Below, piece by piece: positions 20,972-29,572 of a DNA stretch of 64,000 nucleotides. The notes beneath the pieces were generated by a model. It saw only the letters and a program-made list of their open reading frames with translations, ran no database searches and was not told the DNA's origin. The DNA lies in contig PEBW01000006.1 in the NCBI GenBank assembly GCA_003050565.1, positions 62,001-126,000 on the forward strand, read 5' to 3'. How positions within the stretch are numbered: position 1 is the first letter of the stretch; each line of letters starts with the position of its first letter. The translations under genes and the position numbers were made by a program. Source of the DNA: Brockia lithotrophica (GTDB lineage: Bacteria > Bacillota > Bacilli > Thermicanales > DSM-22653).

Positions 20972-21739
20972 TCACGGTTCGGCGTCGGAACCTTCAAGCG
21001 CGGGAGGCACGCCTGTCTCCTCATGACGAGAACTCGACCCCGTAGAGCTCCCGGTCACGGACAAAATTCGGAGAAGGGCTTCCGCCATGGCGAGATCCTC
21101 AGGCGTTGTGAGCTTCAGGTTGTATTCCTCTCCTTCCGTCCAAAAGACGGGAAACCCCAGGCGCTCAAACACGCTCGCTTCGTCCGTGACTTCCCAACCT
21201 CGACGCTCCGCTTCTTCCAAGGCACGCAGGAGCTCCAGACGGGGGAAAGCCTGGGGGGTTTGCACGCGAATGAGACTTTCTCGCTTCGGCGTGCGCAAAA
21301 CTTGCCGCCCCGAGATTTCTTTAATCGTATCCTTCACGGGAAGGGCGGGCACGACGACACGTCCCCCCCGCGCGTACACCGCCATCTTCCGCACGAGCGC
21401 TTCGCTTACGAGGGGACGCACGCCGTCGTGCACGAGCACCCCGTGCACCTCGTCGGACAAAGCACGAACGCCCAGAAAAACGCTGTCTTGGCGACGTTCG
21501 CCGCCCGCGACGAGGCGAAATCCCCGAATACCGTAGGACGCCAAAAGGGAATCCGCCCTTGTCAGATCTTCTCGATGGACGACGATCACCCTTTCCTCGA
21601 TGTCCGACACGCGGGCAAATACGCGGGCCGTGTGCACGAGGACGGGGACGCCGGCGAGAGGGAGAAAGGGTTTTCGTACGGTCCCCCCCATTCGCCTTCC
21701 CTCCCCGGCCGCCACGAGTACCACACCCACAGCTCCCAT
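20972..21739 (-). CDS. ispD: 2-C-methyl-D-erythritol 4-phosphate cytidylyltransferase
   Basis: This is the third MEP-pathway enzyme, about 255 aa. The nucleotide-binding motif LVAAGEGRRMGG is at residues 8-19. VHDGVRPLVS and the C-terminal EGEEYNLKLTTPEDLA are conserved. The ATG at 21737-21739 is chosen. Its Shine-Dalgarno is weak, and a GTG five codons in is possible. It has a Ser/Gly-rich C-terminal tail of about 25 residues beyond the usual end. Confidence 0.94.
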   Translation of the reverse strand: MGAVGVVLVAAGEGRRMGGTVRKPFLPLAGVPVLVHTARVFARVSDIEERVIVVHREDLTRADSLLASYGIRGFRLVAGGERRQDSVFLGVRALSDEVHGVLVHDGVRPLVSEALVRKMAVYARGGRVVVPALPVKDTIKEISGRQVLRTPKRESLIRVQTPQAFPRLELLRALEEAERRGWEVTDEASVFERLGFPVFWTEGEEYNLKLTTPEDLAMAEALLRILSVTGSSTGSSSRHEETGVPPALEGSDAEP

Positions 21740-21878
21740 AGGAGAAAGAAGCCCCTTTCGAGAAAACGACCTACACGAATCCACGGCGAACAAAAGCCTT
21801 TCGCCCCTCGTGTCCATTGTACCGGAATTTCAGGGGATGGGCCGTTCCCGGGGCTGCCAGACGACCGACCCTCGAACC

Positions 21879-21910
21879 AAAAAAAGAAGAGCGCGTGGTG
21901 CGGGCTCTTC
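21879..21910 (-). terminator. Intrinsic terminator downstream of yacL
   Basis: The arms GAAGAGC / GCTCTTC (plus-strand 21886-21892 and 21904-21910) are followed on the minus strand by seven U. It would end the carD-yacL transcript before ispD. Confidence 0.8.
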
Positions 21911-21943
21911 CTTTCGCACAGACCGTTGCACTTTTGCACTTTT

Positions 21944-23041
21944 TTACAAAGCCTTCTCGTACAACTTGGGCTTCGCAAACACCATCCGTCCTGCAGATGT
22001 CTGGAGAACGCTCGTGACGACAACGGCAACGCGCTCTCCCATGTGGGCCTTCCCATCTTCCACGACGATCATCGTGCCGTCCTCGAGATACGCCACTCCC
22101 TGCCCTTCCTCTTTTCCGTCGCGGATGATGTGCACGGTGAGCTCTTCTCCCGGAAGGACGATCGGTTTGAGAGCGTTGGCGAGGTCGTTTACGTTCAACA
22201 CGGGAATTCCCTGAAGCTCGCAAACTTTGTTCAGGTTGAAATCCGTGGTGAGGATCGCCGCCCCAAGTTTCTTGGCAAGTTTTACGAGACGCATGTCTAC
22301 GGGTCCTTCCCCCGCTTCCCCCTCGTAAATGAGGAGCGGAGCTTTCCTGGCCTTTTGCATGCGCGCGAGAATGTCCAACCCTCTCCGTCCGCGATTTCGC
22401 TTGAGGACGTCGGCAGAATCGGCGATGTGCTGGAGTTCTTCCAGGACGAAGAGAGGAACGACGAGCACGCCTTCGAGAAAGCCCGTATCCAAAATGTCTG
22501 CGATACGCCCGTCGATGATCACGCTCGTGTCCAAAATCTTAATGTTCGCCTTGGATCGTTCGGCAAGCGCCGCCCGGTCTTCTCGTTCTTTCTCCCGCTC
22601 GCGCCCGCGTTCGCGGCCGCGCCCGACTTGAAAGAAAGCGAGGAGCTCTTCCTTTTTGCTTGCCCCTACCTTGAATCCGAGGTATCCCAAAAAGACGGAT
22701 AAAAAGATGGGTACAAAGAGATTTAGCACGGGAACTTCCTTGAGCGGCCAGTACAAGAGGAGGGAAACGAGAAGCCCTACGAAAAGTCCGGCAATCCCAG
22801 ACAGGAGGTCGCCCGCCGGAATGCGGGTGAGCGCCTCTTCGAGGCGAAAGACTCCGCGTTCAAAGGGGGAAGCCAAAAGAAAAGAAAGCCCCAGGAAAAG
22901 AAGCCCGCCAATCCCCGCCCCAACAAAGGGGGCATACGCGGATACTACCGGCTCCCAAAACTGCAAAAACGTCGTCACATAGTACCCAAGCGCACCGCCC
23001 AAGAGGGACATAAAGACTTGAAAGGCGCGGCGCAAGAGCAT
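21944..23041 (-). CDS. yacL: Membrane PIN/TRAM-domain protein (YacL family)
   Basis: This 365-aa protein has four N-terminal membrane helices (about residues 8-26, 36-58, 79-99 and 106-124). A highly charged Arg/Glu linker (140-165) is followed by a PIN domain with the acidic site ILDTSVIIDGRIADI and a C-terminal TRAM domain. PIN domains are often RNases. The function of YacL is not established. It sits upstream of ispD, as in Bacillus and many Clostridia. The ATG at 23039-23041 has a GGGAGGTGA Shine-Dalgarno. Confidence 0.93.
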   Translation of the reverse strand: MLLRRAFQVFMSLLGGALGYYVTTFLQFWEPVVSAYAPFVGAGIGGLLFLGLSFLLASPFERGVFRLEEALTRIPAGDLLSGIAGLFVGLLVSLLLYWPLKEVPVLNLFVPIFLSVFLGYLGFKVGASKKEELLAFFQVGRGRERGREREKEREDRAALAERSKANIKILDTSVIIDGRIADILDTGFLEGVLVVPLFVLEELQHIADSADVLKRNRGRRGLDILARMQKARKAPLLIYEGEAGEGPVDMRLVKLAKKLGAAILTTDFNLNKVCELQGIPVLNVNDLANALKPIVLPGEELTVHIIRDGKEEGQGVAYLEDGTMIVVEDGKAHMGERVAVVVTSVLQTSAGRMVFAKPKLYEKAL

Positions 23042-23779: not shown

Positions 23780-23802
23780 AAAAAAACCTCCCCGAAGGGA
23801 GG
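23780..23802 (-). terminator. Intrinsic terminator after the LPXTG-protein gene
   Basis: The arms CCTCCC / GGGAGG with a TTCG loop (23787-23802) are followed on the minus strand by seven U. Confidence 0.88.
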
Positions 23803-23830
23803 CAAAACGGCCCATAGGACGATCTGCAGG

Positions 23831-24556
23831 TTAGCCCTCGTCTCGCCGATTCCATCGGAGAAGAGAAGCTCCTAGCCCGAAGAGCGCAACAGCGCCACCA
23901 AAAAGGTGCAGGAAACCAAGCGCTTCTCCGGTTCGCGGGAGCACGGGCGCCTCTCCCCGTACTTCGCGCTCTTGCCGTGGCGGGAGTTCCTCTGAGGCAG
24001 GCGGTGAGGGGGGTTCCGTCGGCGGCGCAGATGGCGTCGGTGGCGAAGGTGGCTCAGACGGCGGTGCGGGTTGCTCCGGTAGCGTGTCGGGCGGTGCGGG
24101 TTGCTCCGGTGGCGTGTCAGGCGGTGCGGGTTGCTCCGGTGGCGTGTCGGGCGGTGCGGGTTGCTGATCCGGGCAGAGCTTGCAGGTGTCGTTTAAGAAC
24201 TGCTCGCCACCGTTTCCCAGGTAATCGATAGGATGGCCCGGCGGTTGAAAGGTCCCCGGTCCCAAGCTCGGCAAAGAAGGCAAGGAAGGGAGGGTGGCAG
24301 GGGGAGCAAACGTGCCCTGCGTCGTCGCGTGTTGCTCCGTCTTCCCAATCCCGGACGTGGTGGTGGCGAGATCCCCGCTCACTTGATATGGCTCCGTCGC
24401 ATTTGCCGGAAGGAGGCTGCGCAGTTCGGCGGCGAGATCGTCGAGAGAGTTAGAAGCGCTTGCAAAACCGAGGGGCCTTCCGACGCCGTACAAGACGAGG
24501 GAGAGACCGATCCCCGCGAGAAAAAGACGTGCGTGCGGACGCCGAAAAAGGGACAC
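23831..24556 (-). CDS. Secreted LPXTG-type cell-wall-anchored proline-rich protein
   Basis: This 241-aa protein has a signal peptide (MSLFRRPHARLFLAGIGLSLV, cleavage likely near FASA/SNS). A low-complexity Thr/Ala/Pro region follows, then a Pro/Glu/Ser-rich stalk (about residues 130-200) with three to four copies of a PPEQPAPPDT decamer. The end is LPRTG (206-210), then a hydrophobic stretch and an RRDEG tail. That is a textbook sortase A signal. The stalk contains a CKLC pair. The start is a GTG at 24554-24556. An in-frame ORF extends further upstream but overlaps the paralogue before it. It follows paralogue A by 62 bp in one transcript. The binding partner is unknown. No sortase is in the window. 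Confidence 0.8.
   Translation of the reverse strand: MSLFRRPHARLFLAGIGLSLVLYGVGRPLGFASASNSLDDLAAELRSLLPANATEPYQVSGDLATTTSGIGKTEQHATTQGTFAPPATLPSLPSLPSLGPGTFQPPGHPIDYLGNGGEQFLNDTCKLCPDQQPAPPDTPPEQPAPPDTPPEQPAPPDTLPEQPAPPSEPPSPPTPSAPPTEPPSPPASEELPPRQEREVRGEAPVLPRTGEALGFLHLFGGAVALFGLGASLLRWNRRDEG
24061..24164. repeat. 30-bp tandem repeats encoding the PPEQPAPPDT stalk
   Basis: A 30-bp unit beginning GGCGGTGCGGGTTGCTCC repeats almost perfectly at 24061-24090, 24091-24120 and 24121-24150, with a partial fourth copy to 24164. It lies inside the LPXTG gene. Copy number may vary by slippage. Confidence 0.88.
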
Positions 24557-24618: not shown

Positions 24619-25017
24619 CTATTTTCCGCTCAAAGAGCCGCCGAGTCCGGCGAGAAGCGCCCCAAGCGCCCGCGTCGAGGACGCAAGCCCGTTGTCCGCC
24701 TTTACCCGCGAGGAGGCGTAGTACTCTCCGTACGTCACGCACGCACCGGCCTCCGTGCTTCCGCCGAGGAGAGAACTTACAACTCCCGTGAGACCGCCGG
24801 CGGTTTCCTTCGTAGCCGCAACTGCCGTCACGCGCACTCCGTCCGAGGTTTGGATGCCCGCCTTTGCCTGCGCATTGATTTCCGTAGAACCCACGAGTTG
24901 CCCGACGGCGGACAAAAGATCACCCAACGCATTCCCCTGCGCAAACGCAGGAATCGCCGGGACGAGCAAGGCCGCGGACAATACAAACGCAGCAACCTTT
25001 CGTCGGGAACTACGCAT
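24619..25017 (-). CDS. Small secreted Ala/Gly-rich protein, QGNALGDLL family (paralogue A)
   Basis: This 132-aa protein has a clean signal peptide ending PAIPAFA. The mature chain starts QGNALGDLLSAVGQLVG. The body carries VTAVAATKETAGGLTGVVS and a GLASSTRALGALLAGLGG end. It is about 65% identical by eye to paralogue C and shares the same start block with B. It has one cysteine (EAGACVTY). The start is the ATG at 25015-25017 after GGAGGGATC. I do not recognise the family. It precedes the LPXTG gene. Confidence 0.82.
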   Translation of the reverse strand: MRSSRRKVAAFVLSAALLVPAIPAFAQGNALGDLLSAVGQLVGSTEINAQAKAGIQTSDGVRVTAVAATKETAGGLTGVVSSLLGGSTEAGACVTYGEYYASSRVKADNGLASSTRALGALLAGLGGSLSGK

Positions 25018-25114
25018 GCCGATCCCTCCGTAATCGGGAATCTTTTGAAGTTTAGGCTGTCCGGGCAAATACCCCATTATTCGAATTTCGGTTCCTAGGA
25101 CAACCCTACGACAA

Positions 25115-25143
25115 ACTCTAGCACATGTGTCGTTTCAATTCAA
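25115..25143 (-). promoter_or_regulatory. Candidate promoter for paralogue A and the LPXTG gene
   Basis: TTGAAT (25138-25143) and TAGAGT (25115-25120), with a TGC extended -10, are spaced by 17 bp. It lies just downstream of the terminator of the preceding operon. Confidence 0.45.
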
Positions 25144-25176
25144 GGAAAAAGCGGGTAGCCCGGGGCTACCCGCTTT
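25144..25176 (-). terminator. Intrinsic terminator after paralogue B
   Basis: The arms AAAGCGGGTAGCC / GGCTACCCGCTTT (25148-25176) are followed on the minus strand by a short U run. It would end the transcript of D, C and B. Confidence 0.85.
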
Positions 25177-25200
25177 CCGACCTCCCTGAGGGGTCTTAGC

Positions 25201-25596
25201 TTACTTTCCGAGAACGCCGCTCAAAAGACCTGCCAGACCCGCGGAGAGGCCGCGAACCGTGGAGGCGAGGCCGTAGTCTCCGTTCGTGTAAGCCCCGGCG
25301 GAGAGGTTGTTGGGACCCTTGATCTCCGCAGCGGTGCTGTAGCTCCCGCCCAGAAGGCCGCCTACGAGGCCGTTAAGACCCGTCTGTTTGTTCCCGTAGG
25401 TCGCCTGCGCCGTGAGGACGGCATTCGGGGTAGTAGCCTCTACGTAGCTCACGGCGCCGAGATCGTGGTCCCCGACCAGCTGACCTACTGCCGTGAGGAG
25501 GTCGCCGAGGGCGTTGCCCTGGGCAAACGCCAAGCCGCCGCCAGCAAAGAGGACGAGCGCCAATACAGCCGTAACAACTCCCACGCGCACCTTCAT
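25201..25596 (-). CDS. Small secreted Ala/Gly-rich protein, QGNALGDLL family (paralogue B)
   Basis: This 131-aa secreted protein has the signal peptide ending GGGLAFA and the shared mature start QGNALGDLLTAVGQLVG. The middle differs from A and C (HDLGAVSYVEATTPNAVLT), but the closing GLASTVRGLSAGLAGLLSGV is shared. The start is the ATG at 25594-25596 with a GGGGGAAGGG Shine-Dalgarno. It sits 48 bp after paralogue C. No function is known to me. Confidence 0.82.
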   Translation of the reverse strand: MKVRVGVVTAVLALVLFAGGGLAFAQGNALGDLLTAVGQLVGDHDLGAVSYVEATTPNAVLTAQATYGNKQTGLNGLVGGLLGGSYSTAAEIKGPNNLSAGAYTNGDYGLASTVRGLSAGLAGLLSGVLGK

Positions 25597-25644
25597 CGTT
25601 TCCCTTCCCCCCGCTTGTTGAGGTAGTCGGATTCCCGCTCCCGG

Positions 25645-26040
25645 TTACTTCCCGGCCAACGCCCCGCCGAGCCCTGCGAGGAGCGCACCGAGCGCCCGCG
25701 TCGTAGACGCGAGACCCCAGTCGGCGTTCACGCTCGCCTTAGCCGAATACTGGTCGTACGTCGCGTACGCTCCCGCCTGGGTGCTCCCGCCCATGAGAGA
25801 GGTTACGACTCCCGTGAGACCTCCCGCCGTCTCCTTCGTCGCCGCAACCGCCGTAACGCTGACGTCACCCGTCTGGATTGTCGCTTTCGCCTGCGCGTTT
25901 ACCTCCGTCGACCCGACGAGCTGACCCACCGCCGTCAGAAGATCCCCCAGAGCGTTCCCTTGGGCAAATGCGGGAACCACGGGGAGGAGCAGGGCCACGG
26001 ACAAGACCGCCGCCAGGAGACTTTTCCGCCCTACCTTCAC
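25645..26040 (-). CDS. Small secreted Ala/Gly-rich protein, QGNALGDLL family (paralogue C)
   Basis: This 131-aa secreted protein has a signal peptide ending PVVPAFA and the same QGNALGDLLTAVGQLVG start. The body is close to A (VNAQAKATIQT, VTAVAATKETAGGLTGVV) and ends GLASTTRALGALLAGLGG. The GTG at 26038-26040 is preferred over an earlier GTG because GGAGGG lies 8 bp before it. It lies just downstream of gene D. Confidence 0.82.
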   Translation of the reverse strand: MKVGRKSLLAAVLSVALLLPVVPAFAQGNALGDLLTAVGQLVGSTEVNAQAKATIQTGDVSVTAVAATKETAGGLTGVVTSLMGGSTQAGAYATYDQYSAKASVNADWGLASTTRALGALLAGLGGALAGK

Positions 26041-26088: not shown

Positions 26089-26388
26089 CTACTTTCCTTC
26101 CGACAGCTTGGGCAACCACACCTGTGTCGAGGATTCCGCGCGGATAGTGACTCCGTTTTTCTCCCCTACGTAAGTGGCAGAGGCGCCAAACTTCCCTGGG
26201 GCAACTTCGGAAAGCGGAGACACCACTTCCACGCTCTGCCCGTTCCAATCCACCCGCACGCTGGACGACCCGCTCAAGTCGCCCGCATACCAGGAATTCA
26301 ATTCTGAAATCCAAGACCACAAGGAGGCCCAGCCTGCCGGGAGGAACGCGAGAAGGAGGAGCGTTGCGATCGCCGCGAATCGCCGCAT
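26089..26388 (-). CDS. Small secreted hypothetical protein (D), tryptophan-containing
   Basis: This 99-aa protein has a signal peptide (MRRFAAIATLLLLAFLPAGWA). The mature part is rich in Ser/Val/Trp (DWNGQSVEVVSPLSEV, STQVWLPKLSEGK), which suggests short beta strands. The start is the ATG at 26386-26388 after a perfect GGAGGTGA. It heads the D-C-B set. I do not recognise the family. Confidence 0.7.
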   Translation of the reverse strand: MRRFAAIATLLLLAFLPAGWASLWSWISELNSWYAGDLSGSSSVRVDWNGQSVEVVSPLSEVAPGKFGASATYVGEKNGVTIRAESSTQVWLPKLSEGK

Positions 26389-28793: not shown

Positions 28794-29423
28794 TTACAGG
28801 GAAACTTCCAACAGGCGGTGAAGGTATTGGAGCTCCTCATGGATTGCCTCTCGAAGGATCTTTGCCTCTTCCTCAGAAAACCTTTCTTGCACGCCGGGGT
28901 CCGTAAGCTTCGCCTCGAGCTCCTGCAGCTTCAGGGAGGGAAGGGCGAGAATCTCTTCCTCCACCGCGGTACCGCGCGCCCGGGCGAGAATCTGCTGCAT
29001 TTTCGCCTCGTGCGTCACGCGGATTTGTTCCCGTGCCCGAGCCCGCTCCGAGGTGGACTCGCGCTCTTGGTTTTTCTCCGCCTTGCGCTCTTTGCTTTTG
29101 CCCGTCTTCGTCTCCTCCTTCACCTTCTCGTCGGAGGAGACGGACTTCCCGTCCGGGTAGTCGACTTCCTCTTGGTCTTCCGATTGATCTTCCGACGAAC
29201 CCCGGGAAACCTCGTTTTTCCCGAATTCCTCCTTTGCGCCGGTCTTCGGGGGAGCGTCCTGGGCAACGAGAACCGATCCCCGAACTTCCGTCGGGGATCC
29301 CATGCCCAACGCCTTCTTCACGTTTCCCCACGTACCTCCCGGATGTGCGTAGACGAAAGAGGCGCCGACGAGGAGGAGCGCGGCAAGTACACCGATCGCC
29401 AACGCGGAGCGTCTCCGGAGCAT
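28794..29423 (-). CDS. Secreted, highly charged coiled-coil hypothetical protein under c-di-GMP riboswitch
   Basis: This 209-aa protein has a signal peptide (LLLVGASFVYA, cleavage near residue 26). A Glu/Lys/Ser-rich linker follows (about residues 60-125). The C-terminal helical segments (REQIRVTHEAKMQQIL and RFSEEEAKILREAIHEELQYL) look coiled-coil. I know no family for it. The ATG at 29421-29423 is preceded by GAGGTGAGGTGA, which can pair in the leader hairpin. The c-di-GMP-I type element at 29454-29572 lies directly upstream, so expression should respond to that messenger. Confidence 0.72.
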   Translation of the reverse strand: MLRRRSALAIGVLAALLLVGASFVYAHPGGTWGNVKKALGMGSPTEVRGSVLVAQDAPPKTGAKEEFGKNEVSRGSSEDQSEDQEEVDYPDGKSVSSDEKVKEETKTGKSKERKAEKNQERESTSERARAREQIRVTHEAKMQQILARARGTAVEEEILALPSLKLQELEAKLTDPGVQERFSEEEAKILREAIHEELQYLHRLLEVSL

Positions 29424-29453: not shown

Positions 29454-29572
29454 GGCGACCGCATTCCCGGCAGACCGGCAGCTGGCTGGCATGGCGGGGG
29501 AATCTTCCCTCCGCGGTAGCCCCTCTAGCTTTGCGCCCGACGCTTTCGCGTCGTTTGCCCTGGACGGTCGCC
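29454..29572 (-). ncRNA. Cyclic-di-GMP-I (GEMM) riboswitch candidate
   Basis: The minus-strand RNA has the GEMM core in order: AGGGCAAAC (29553-29561), a GACGC-GAAA-GCGTC stem with tetraloop (29539-29552), GGGCGCAAAGCTA (29528-29534 holds GCAAAGC), and CATGCCAGCCAGCTGCC at the 3' side. The whole is closed by GGCGACCG / CGGTCGCC (29565-29572 and 29454-29461). Downstream, CCTCAC (29450-29455) overlaps the closing helix by 2 bases and can pair with GTGAGG at the Shine-Dalgarno. This suggests control of translation. A covariance search (Rfam RF01051) would settle it. Confidence 0.8.

Follow-up and report, generated by a model that had tools for sequence, protein, structure and literature searches.

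Organization of the locus

The window analysed here is a stretch of 64,000 nucleotides from the genome of Brockia lithotrophica (G000; 1.69 Mb, 12 contigs), in which the genes C, A1, B, A2 and LPXTG follow each other in that order on the minus strand (Table 1). A sequence-only reading had described three secreted paralogues with a common start, located next to an LPXTG protein. These correspond to A1, B and A2, and the LPXTG gene indeed comes directly after A2. No further A/B copies were recovered when the Brockia genome was searched.

Table 1. Genes and transcription signals of the Brockia locus (positions in the window)
Feature	Position	Strand	Description and basis
Gene C	26388..26089	-	Small protein, predicted to be exported or membrane-tethered; fourth small secreted gene of the set
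Gene A1	26040..25645	-	GTG start; predicted exported A-type subunit, mature chain 105 aa
Gene B	25596..25201	-	Predicted exported B-type subunit, mature chain 106 aa
Terminator, GCGGGTAGCCCCGGGCTACCCGCTTTTT	25145..25178	-	Intrinsic, closing the C-A1-B unit; RNA fold and conserved stem/T run
Promoter of A2-LPXTG	25109..25143	-	Probable sigma-A, TTGAAT-N17-TAGAGT with TG extension; conserved blocks
Gene A2	25017..24619	-	ATG start, ORF open to 25077; second A-type subunit, single Cys
LPXTG gene	24556..23831	-	Signal peptide, N-terminal domain, CKLC, Pro-rich repeat stalk, LPRTG sorting signal
Hairpin 3' of LPXTG gene	23786..23803	-	Resembles an intrinsic terminator; RNA fold

The terminator after B folds with -34.3 kcal/mol (z -4.55, region 25140-25195), and its stem and T run are kept in all three Brockia-type genomes, which include the sister genome G001 and the RBS10-35 genome. 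Upstream of A2, the TTGAA and TGCTAGAGTT blocks are identical in the same three genomes; a scan for consensus promoters did not recover the A2 promoter, the call being a reading of these conserved blocks. A2 and the LPXTG gene probably constitute a unit of their own in Brockia, behind a separate terminator and promoter.

Sequence, selection and predicted structure of the A and B chains

The signal peptides of A1, B and A2 end in AFA directly before QGN and leave mature chains of 105, 106 and 106 aa, in line with the length of about 105 aa initially given; the one cysteine claimed among the three chains was also found, in A2. All three mature chains start with QGNALGDLL(T/S)AVGQLVG and end with GLAS(S/T)(T/V)R(A/G)L(G/S)A(L/G)LAGL. 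The description of constant ends around a variable centre applies to A versus B, but fails for A1 versus A2, which are 80% identical across the entire mature chain, centre included, so that the pattern is a contrast between A and B. Invariant residues of the A/B alignment, which are Gly, Leu, Ala and Ser, are present in the chain centre as well.

These are genuine genes, and the pattern is no product of chance: purifying selection is very strong, as indicated by dN/dS values against the sister genome G001 of 0.037 for A1, 0.050 for B, 0.059 for A2 and 0.165 for C. Between copies, the first 18 codons retain 16-17 identical residues with 11-15 different third positions; between A2 and B, 16 of the 18 residues are common and the third position differs in 15 of those 16 codons. 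Because the N-terminal codons have diverged synonymously, the constant N-terminus is maintained by selection acting at the protein level and does not stem from a recent duplication of DNA; recent gene conversion was rejected as its source.

The chains are made of 71-82% Gly, Ala, Ser, Thr, Leu and Val, with 3-14 charged residues each and a GRAVY of +0.15 to +0.44. The AlphaFold model of A, built from 18 sequences, is of low-to-moderate confidence (mean pLDDT 69, pTM 0.46), is no proof of a polymer, and presents a helix-hairpin-helix-hairpin-helix arrangement (H4-15, E19-31, E34-46, H48-57, E59-69, E72-82, H85-103). According to this model, the variable middle is better described as two beta-hairpins placed between three Gly/Leu helices. 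The model also gives the impression of an internal duplication of a helix plus hairpin unit, which is not supported at sequence level: the profile match of the two halves was no better than that of column-shuffled controls (10/60 at least as good as the real one).

Gene pairing, third component and distribution

In a tree of 18 mature chains, A and B separate cleanly (support 100/99, found in 100% of bootstrap trees), which shows them, at the level of the sequences, as two ancient and separate families. Within both clades, Brockia groups with G709, a genome from a different class of Bacillota, and Kyrpidia falls beside G104, a Bacilli genome. A is located directly upstream of B in every locus, be it Brockia-type, Kyrpidia-type (n = 3: K. 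tusciae and two loci of G059, a second Kyrpidia-like genome), G104 or G709; in Brockia, A2 is an extra A copy placed after B.

Similarly, homologues of C adjoin the A-B pair in all seven loci examined, the order being C-A1-B-A2 in the Brockia type, A-B-C in K. tusciae, G059 and G104, and C-A-B in G709. C is a protein of about 85-100 aa with a hydrophobic N-terminus followed by a predicted four-stranded beta meander, whose strands are modelled by AlphaFold with a pLDDT of 86-90. One of the two G059 loci carries a C with an in-frame stop; the other copy in that genome is intact.

Sequence searches with A and B against Pfam, NCBIfam, PHROGs and PDB sequences, and with C against Pfam, NCBIfam and PHROGs, returned zero significant matches, and fold searches with the A and C models gave nothing at E ≤ 0.001. 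The earlier statement that no known family has this layout is thus upheld in Pfam, NCBIfam, PHROGs and the solved structures; the homologues that it proposed to look for belong to no described family and lie in a conserved C-A-B neighbourhood. By these comparisons, A, B and C define three protein families, as yet without a name, whose genes keep each other's company across genomes.

The A/B family is rare, and its few hosts are distantly related and mostly thermophilic. At E ≤ 0.01 it was detected in 6/399 genomes of the class, with G252 barely passing at E = 0.0098. The survey of the phylum gave 4/398 genomes, where two are marginal short matches (E 0.004-0.007), and that of the class of G709 gave 1/113. 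It is absent from the same-family relatives G002-G004 and from G044, the other single-contig genome of the genus Kyrpidia searched. Beyond Brockia, the C-A-B set was recovered in K. tusciae, G059, G104 and G709 and is absent from nearly all other genomes searched. In G191, G252, G572 and G030 the matches are weak, covering short stretches at marginal E values (0.003-0.01); that of G191 proved upon reading to lie at the end of an unrelated protein that carries its signal peptide. Plasmids (searched with a B-type query), phages (with an A-type query) and viral contigs gave zero matches. The patchy spread of the family suggests dissemination by transfer.

LPXTG protein and sortases

The Brockia LPXTG protein (P0005) carries LPRTGEALGFLHLFGGAVALFGLGASLLRWNRRDEG, with the LPXTG signal, a hydrophobic stretch and a basic tail, in a genome that encodes a sortase; against Pfam Gram_pos_anchor it scores only 13 bits, below the cut-off of 20. 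A 30-bp tandem repeat lies inside the gene at 24060-24165. The only sortase gene of Brockia (contig C1, 8791-9111) scores nearest to class C (pilus-type) and not to class D. A dedication of this sortase to the locus is not supported, because the genome encodes other LPXTG proteins. Two LPRTG proteins (frames of 689 and 726 aa, with nearly identical tails LPRTGALPPEVLLVVGG) are indeed located on the sortase contig at ~16.5-19.4 kb (L081), ~7-10 kb from the sortase gene.

In K. tusciae the order is A-B-C-LPXTG-class D sortase. This sortase is the sole one of the genome, and the LPXTG protein of the locus is the only one above the Pfam cut-off. The enzyme passes the class D model NCBIfam NF058671 (162.3 vs 140 bits) and falls just under the cut-off of the general class D model NF033746 (149.1 vs 165). 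The locus-free relatives G002, G003, G004, G005 and G044 all lack a sortase (zero in 5/5).

The LPXTG protein is a separable add-on to C-A-B: in Brockia it sits with A2 behind a separate terminator and promoter, it has decayed jointly with A2 in the RBS10-35 genome, and it is absent next to A-B-C in G104 and G709. In the RBS10-35 genome, stops and frame breaks disrupt both A2 and the LPXTG gene (L015, 2938-4000), with C, A1 and B intact, and G104 and G709 encode A-B-C with neither a neighbouring LPXTG protein nor a sortase in the genome. The second G059 locus also presents A-B-C without an LPXTG gene, as far as the contig reaches, and no sortase was found in G059, a genome that is 86% complete.

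The stalks of the LPXTG proteins differ, being Pro-rich in Brockia and Gly-rich in Kyrpidia, and in each intact protein a Cys pair directly precedes the stalk. In G059 the contig ends within the protein at the anchor position, so that the LPXTG lies outside the sequence seen; this protein starts with the helix motif of the subunits, GTVGDVLGSVTQLVGS (0/2000 shuffles as good); in the LPXTG proteins of Brockia and K. tusciae a motif of this kind was not clear of shuffles. A single Cys is found in 4/4 A chains (Br_A2, G1_A2, Kt_A and K59a_A) whose genes are co-transcribed with that of an LPXTG-type protein bearing a Cys pair, and in 0/6 of the remaining A chains, a pattern that amounts to only about two independent events, with the Cys at two different chain positions. 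A disulfide between subunit and anchor would be a guess from this co-occurrence, and such a tether is less likely in Brockia because this organism is an obligate anaerobe (PMC5928048).

Regulation

In each of the three Kyrpidia-type loci, A is preceded at a distance of ~100 bp by tandem Spo0A-type boxes (TGTCGA-N4-TGTCGA, 10 bp spacing), and no other tandem TGTCGA boxes occur across 37 kb of these loci; the core box of Spo0A is TGTCGAA (PMC3485338). G709 has one perfect Spo0A box before C, a single 7-mer of a kind that can arise by chance, and the Brockia locus presents no convincing box.

Proposed function and alternatives

The sequence-only reading took these proteins for likely components of a fibre, a spore layer or a matrix. 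This is still the best fit to the export signals, the composition, the A-B pairing, the linkage to LPXTG and sortase and the lack of a known family, although A, B and C also recur without the LPXTG protein. Starting from the gene content, the pairing, the separate ancestry of A and B, the purifying selection and the separability of the anchor, which the comparisons above establish, we consider the chances evenly balanced that A and B make up a co-assembling surface or matrix structure, with C helping and the LPXTG protein optionally tethering it. A and B would be partner subunits exported by Sec and trimmed after AxA. Once outside the cell, they would join via the Gly/Leu-rich helices and the low-charge beta-hairpins to make a fibre or film. 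C, encoded in the same operon and predicted to form a beta meander, would help or seed the assembly. Where present, the LPXTG protein would be fixed by sortase to peptidoglycan, its stalk tethering the assembly. In Kyrpidia, Spo0A would probably activate the operon as the cells pass into sporulation.

Such a system would resemble TasA/TapA of Bacillus subtilis in having exported subunits with a same-operon helper that may co-assemble in Spo0A-governed spore formers. On the contrary, A and B show no homology to TasA, being chains of ~105 aa with three Gly/Leu helices and no TasA domain, and the set includes an LPXTG anchor and a sortase. The single match to PF12389 (camelysin/TasA) covers only residues 2-40 of B, over the signal peptide (E = 0.1; 12.8 bits vs a cut-off of 22.5).

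Two close rivals, a spore layer and a film former, partly overlap with the co-assembly of A and B. A spore-specific layer is unlikely; here sporulating cells would produce A, B and C as a coat or lining of the forespore, and the class D sortase would act as it does in Bacillus anthracis. It agrees with the tandem boxes of the Kyrpidia-type loci, although Spo0A also controls biofilm matrix genes. It agrees as well with the sortase of K. tusciae, since the class D enzyme of B. anthracis acts in sporulating cells, its targets being proteins of the predivisional cell and the forespore (PMC4498605), and both K. tusciae and Brockia are spore formers (PMC3236038, PMC5928048). The likeness to the class D sortase of B. 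anthracis and its substrates BasH/BasI, based on NF058671 and on spore formation, concerns K. tusciae, unlike Brockia, whose sortase does not score as class D; and unlike BasH/BasI, the LPXTG protein is a stalk protein of a new kind, found alongside A, B and C. Moreover, the Sec signal peptides fit export from the cell and not the usual coat route, and no sigma-E/K/G promoter was recognised at the locus upon inspection by eye.

Chaplins of Streptomyces are short hydrophobic exported proteins with a sortase-anchored partner, and A and B would share these traits, with free subunits next to a wall-anchored partner. A surface-active film former, functionally chaplin- or BslA-like, that coats cell or mineral surfaces and alters wetting or adhesion without fibres, would suit this arrangement and the low-charge, mildly hydrophobic composition given above. 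It is nonetheless quite improbable, as no member matches the Pfam chaplin models. The set differs from chaplins by its two fixed families A and B, its C protein and its Bacillota host.

Two-component, bacteriocin-like secreted peptides, whose Gly-zipper helices would jointly enter target membranes, recall the two-partner layout and the GxxxG-type Gly spacing of the helices. This reading is very unlikely: the signal peptides are Sec-type and not double-glycine leaders, neither an immunity gene nor a dedicated transporter recurs next to the pair at the loci examined, and both the very strong purifying selection and the linkage to LPXTG and sortase speak against it. The least probable is an enzyme or binding-protein accessory, for instance for sulfur or metal handling on the surface of H2-oxidising thermophiles, since catalytic-type polar residues are not conserved and the alignment is invariant at Gly, Leu, Ala and Ser positions, although the known hosts are thermophilic H2 oxidisers with common habitats (PMC5928048).

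Returning to the co-assembly of A and B, the wider view of a previously undescribed extracellular A+B polymer of Bacillota, with C as helper and an optional sortase-anchored tether that can display the assembly helix of the subunits, patchy, probably transferred and found mostly in thermophiles, is a tentative one and rather doubtful as a whole. It provides a concrete and testable model, a wall-tethered two-subunit surface assembly in the type strain K. tusciae. If A and B polymerise, they would represent a matrix or surface system built from parts of thermophiles, for which the searches detected no relation in sequence to TasA, chaplins or pili. If our inference is right, the system would operate in the same way as other surface assemblies, sortase-linked or of the matrix type, yet be a member of none of those tested.

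Neighbouring features

A Pro/Gly-rich, probably exported protein is encoded divergently from A in K. tusciae (L017, 10393-12366, +) and in one of the two G059 loci (L018, 5057-6613, -), and is a possible further component. The vicinity of the G104 locus (L037, 10434-14535) harbours genes for a radical SAM/SPASM-like protein and an ABC transporter, like a peptide-modification cluster. In G709, a fluoride riboswitch (L054, 8205-8269, -) lies immediately upstream of C but faces away from it, towards a transporter-like gene.

Within the window, a 559-aa open frame (21023..22702, +) antisense to a PIN/TRAM-type gene (23041..21944) is probably spurious and due to the high GC content of the coding DNA. 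At 29474-29569 (-), a riboswitch of the c-di-GMP-I class (65.8 bits) lies directly upstream of the gene 29423..28794, which encodes an exported, highly charged protein of 209 aa, and is kept at the corresponding place in the sister genome G001 (L016, 12763-12860).
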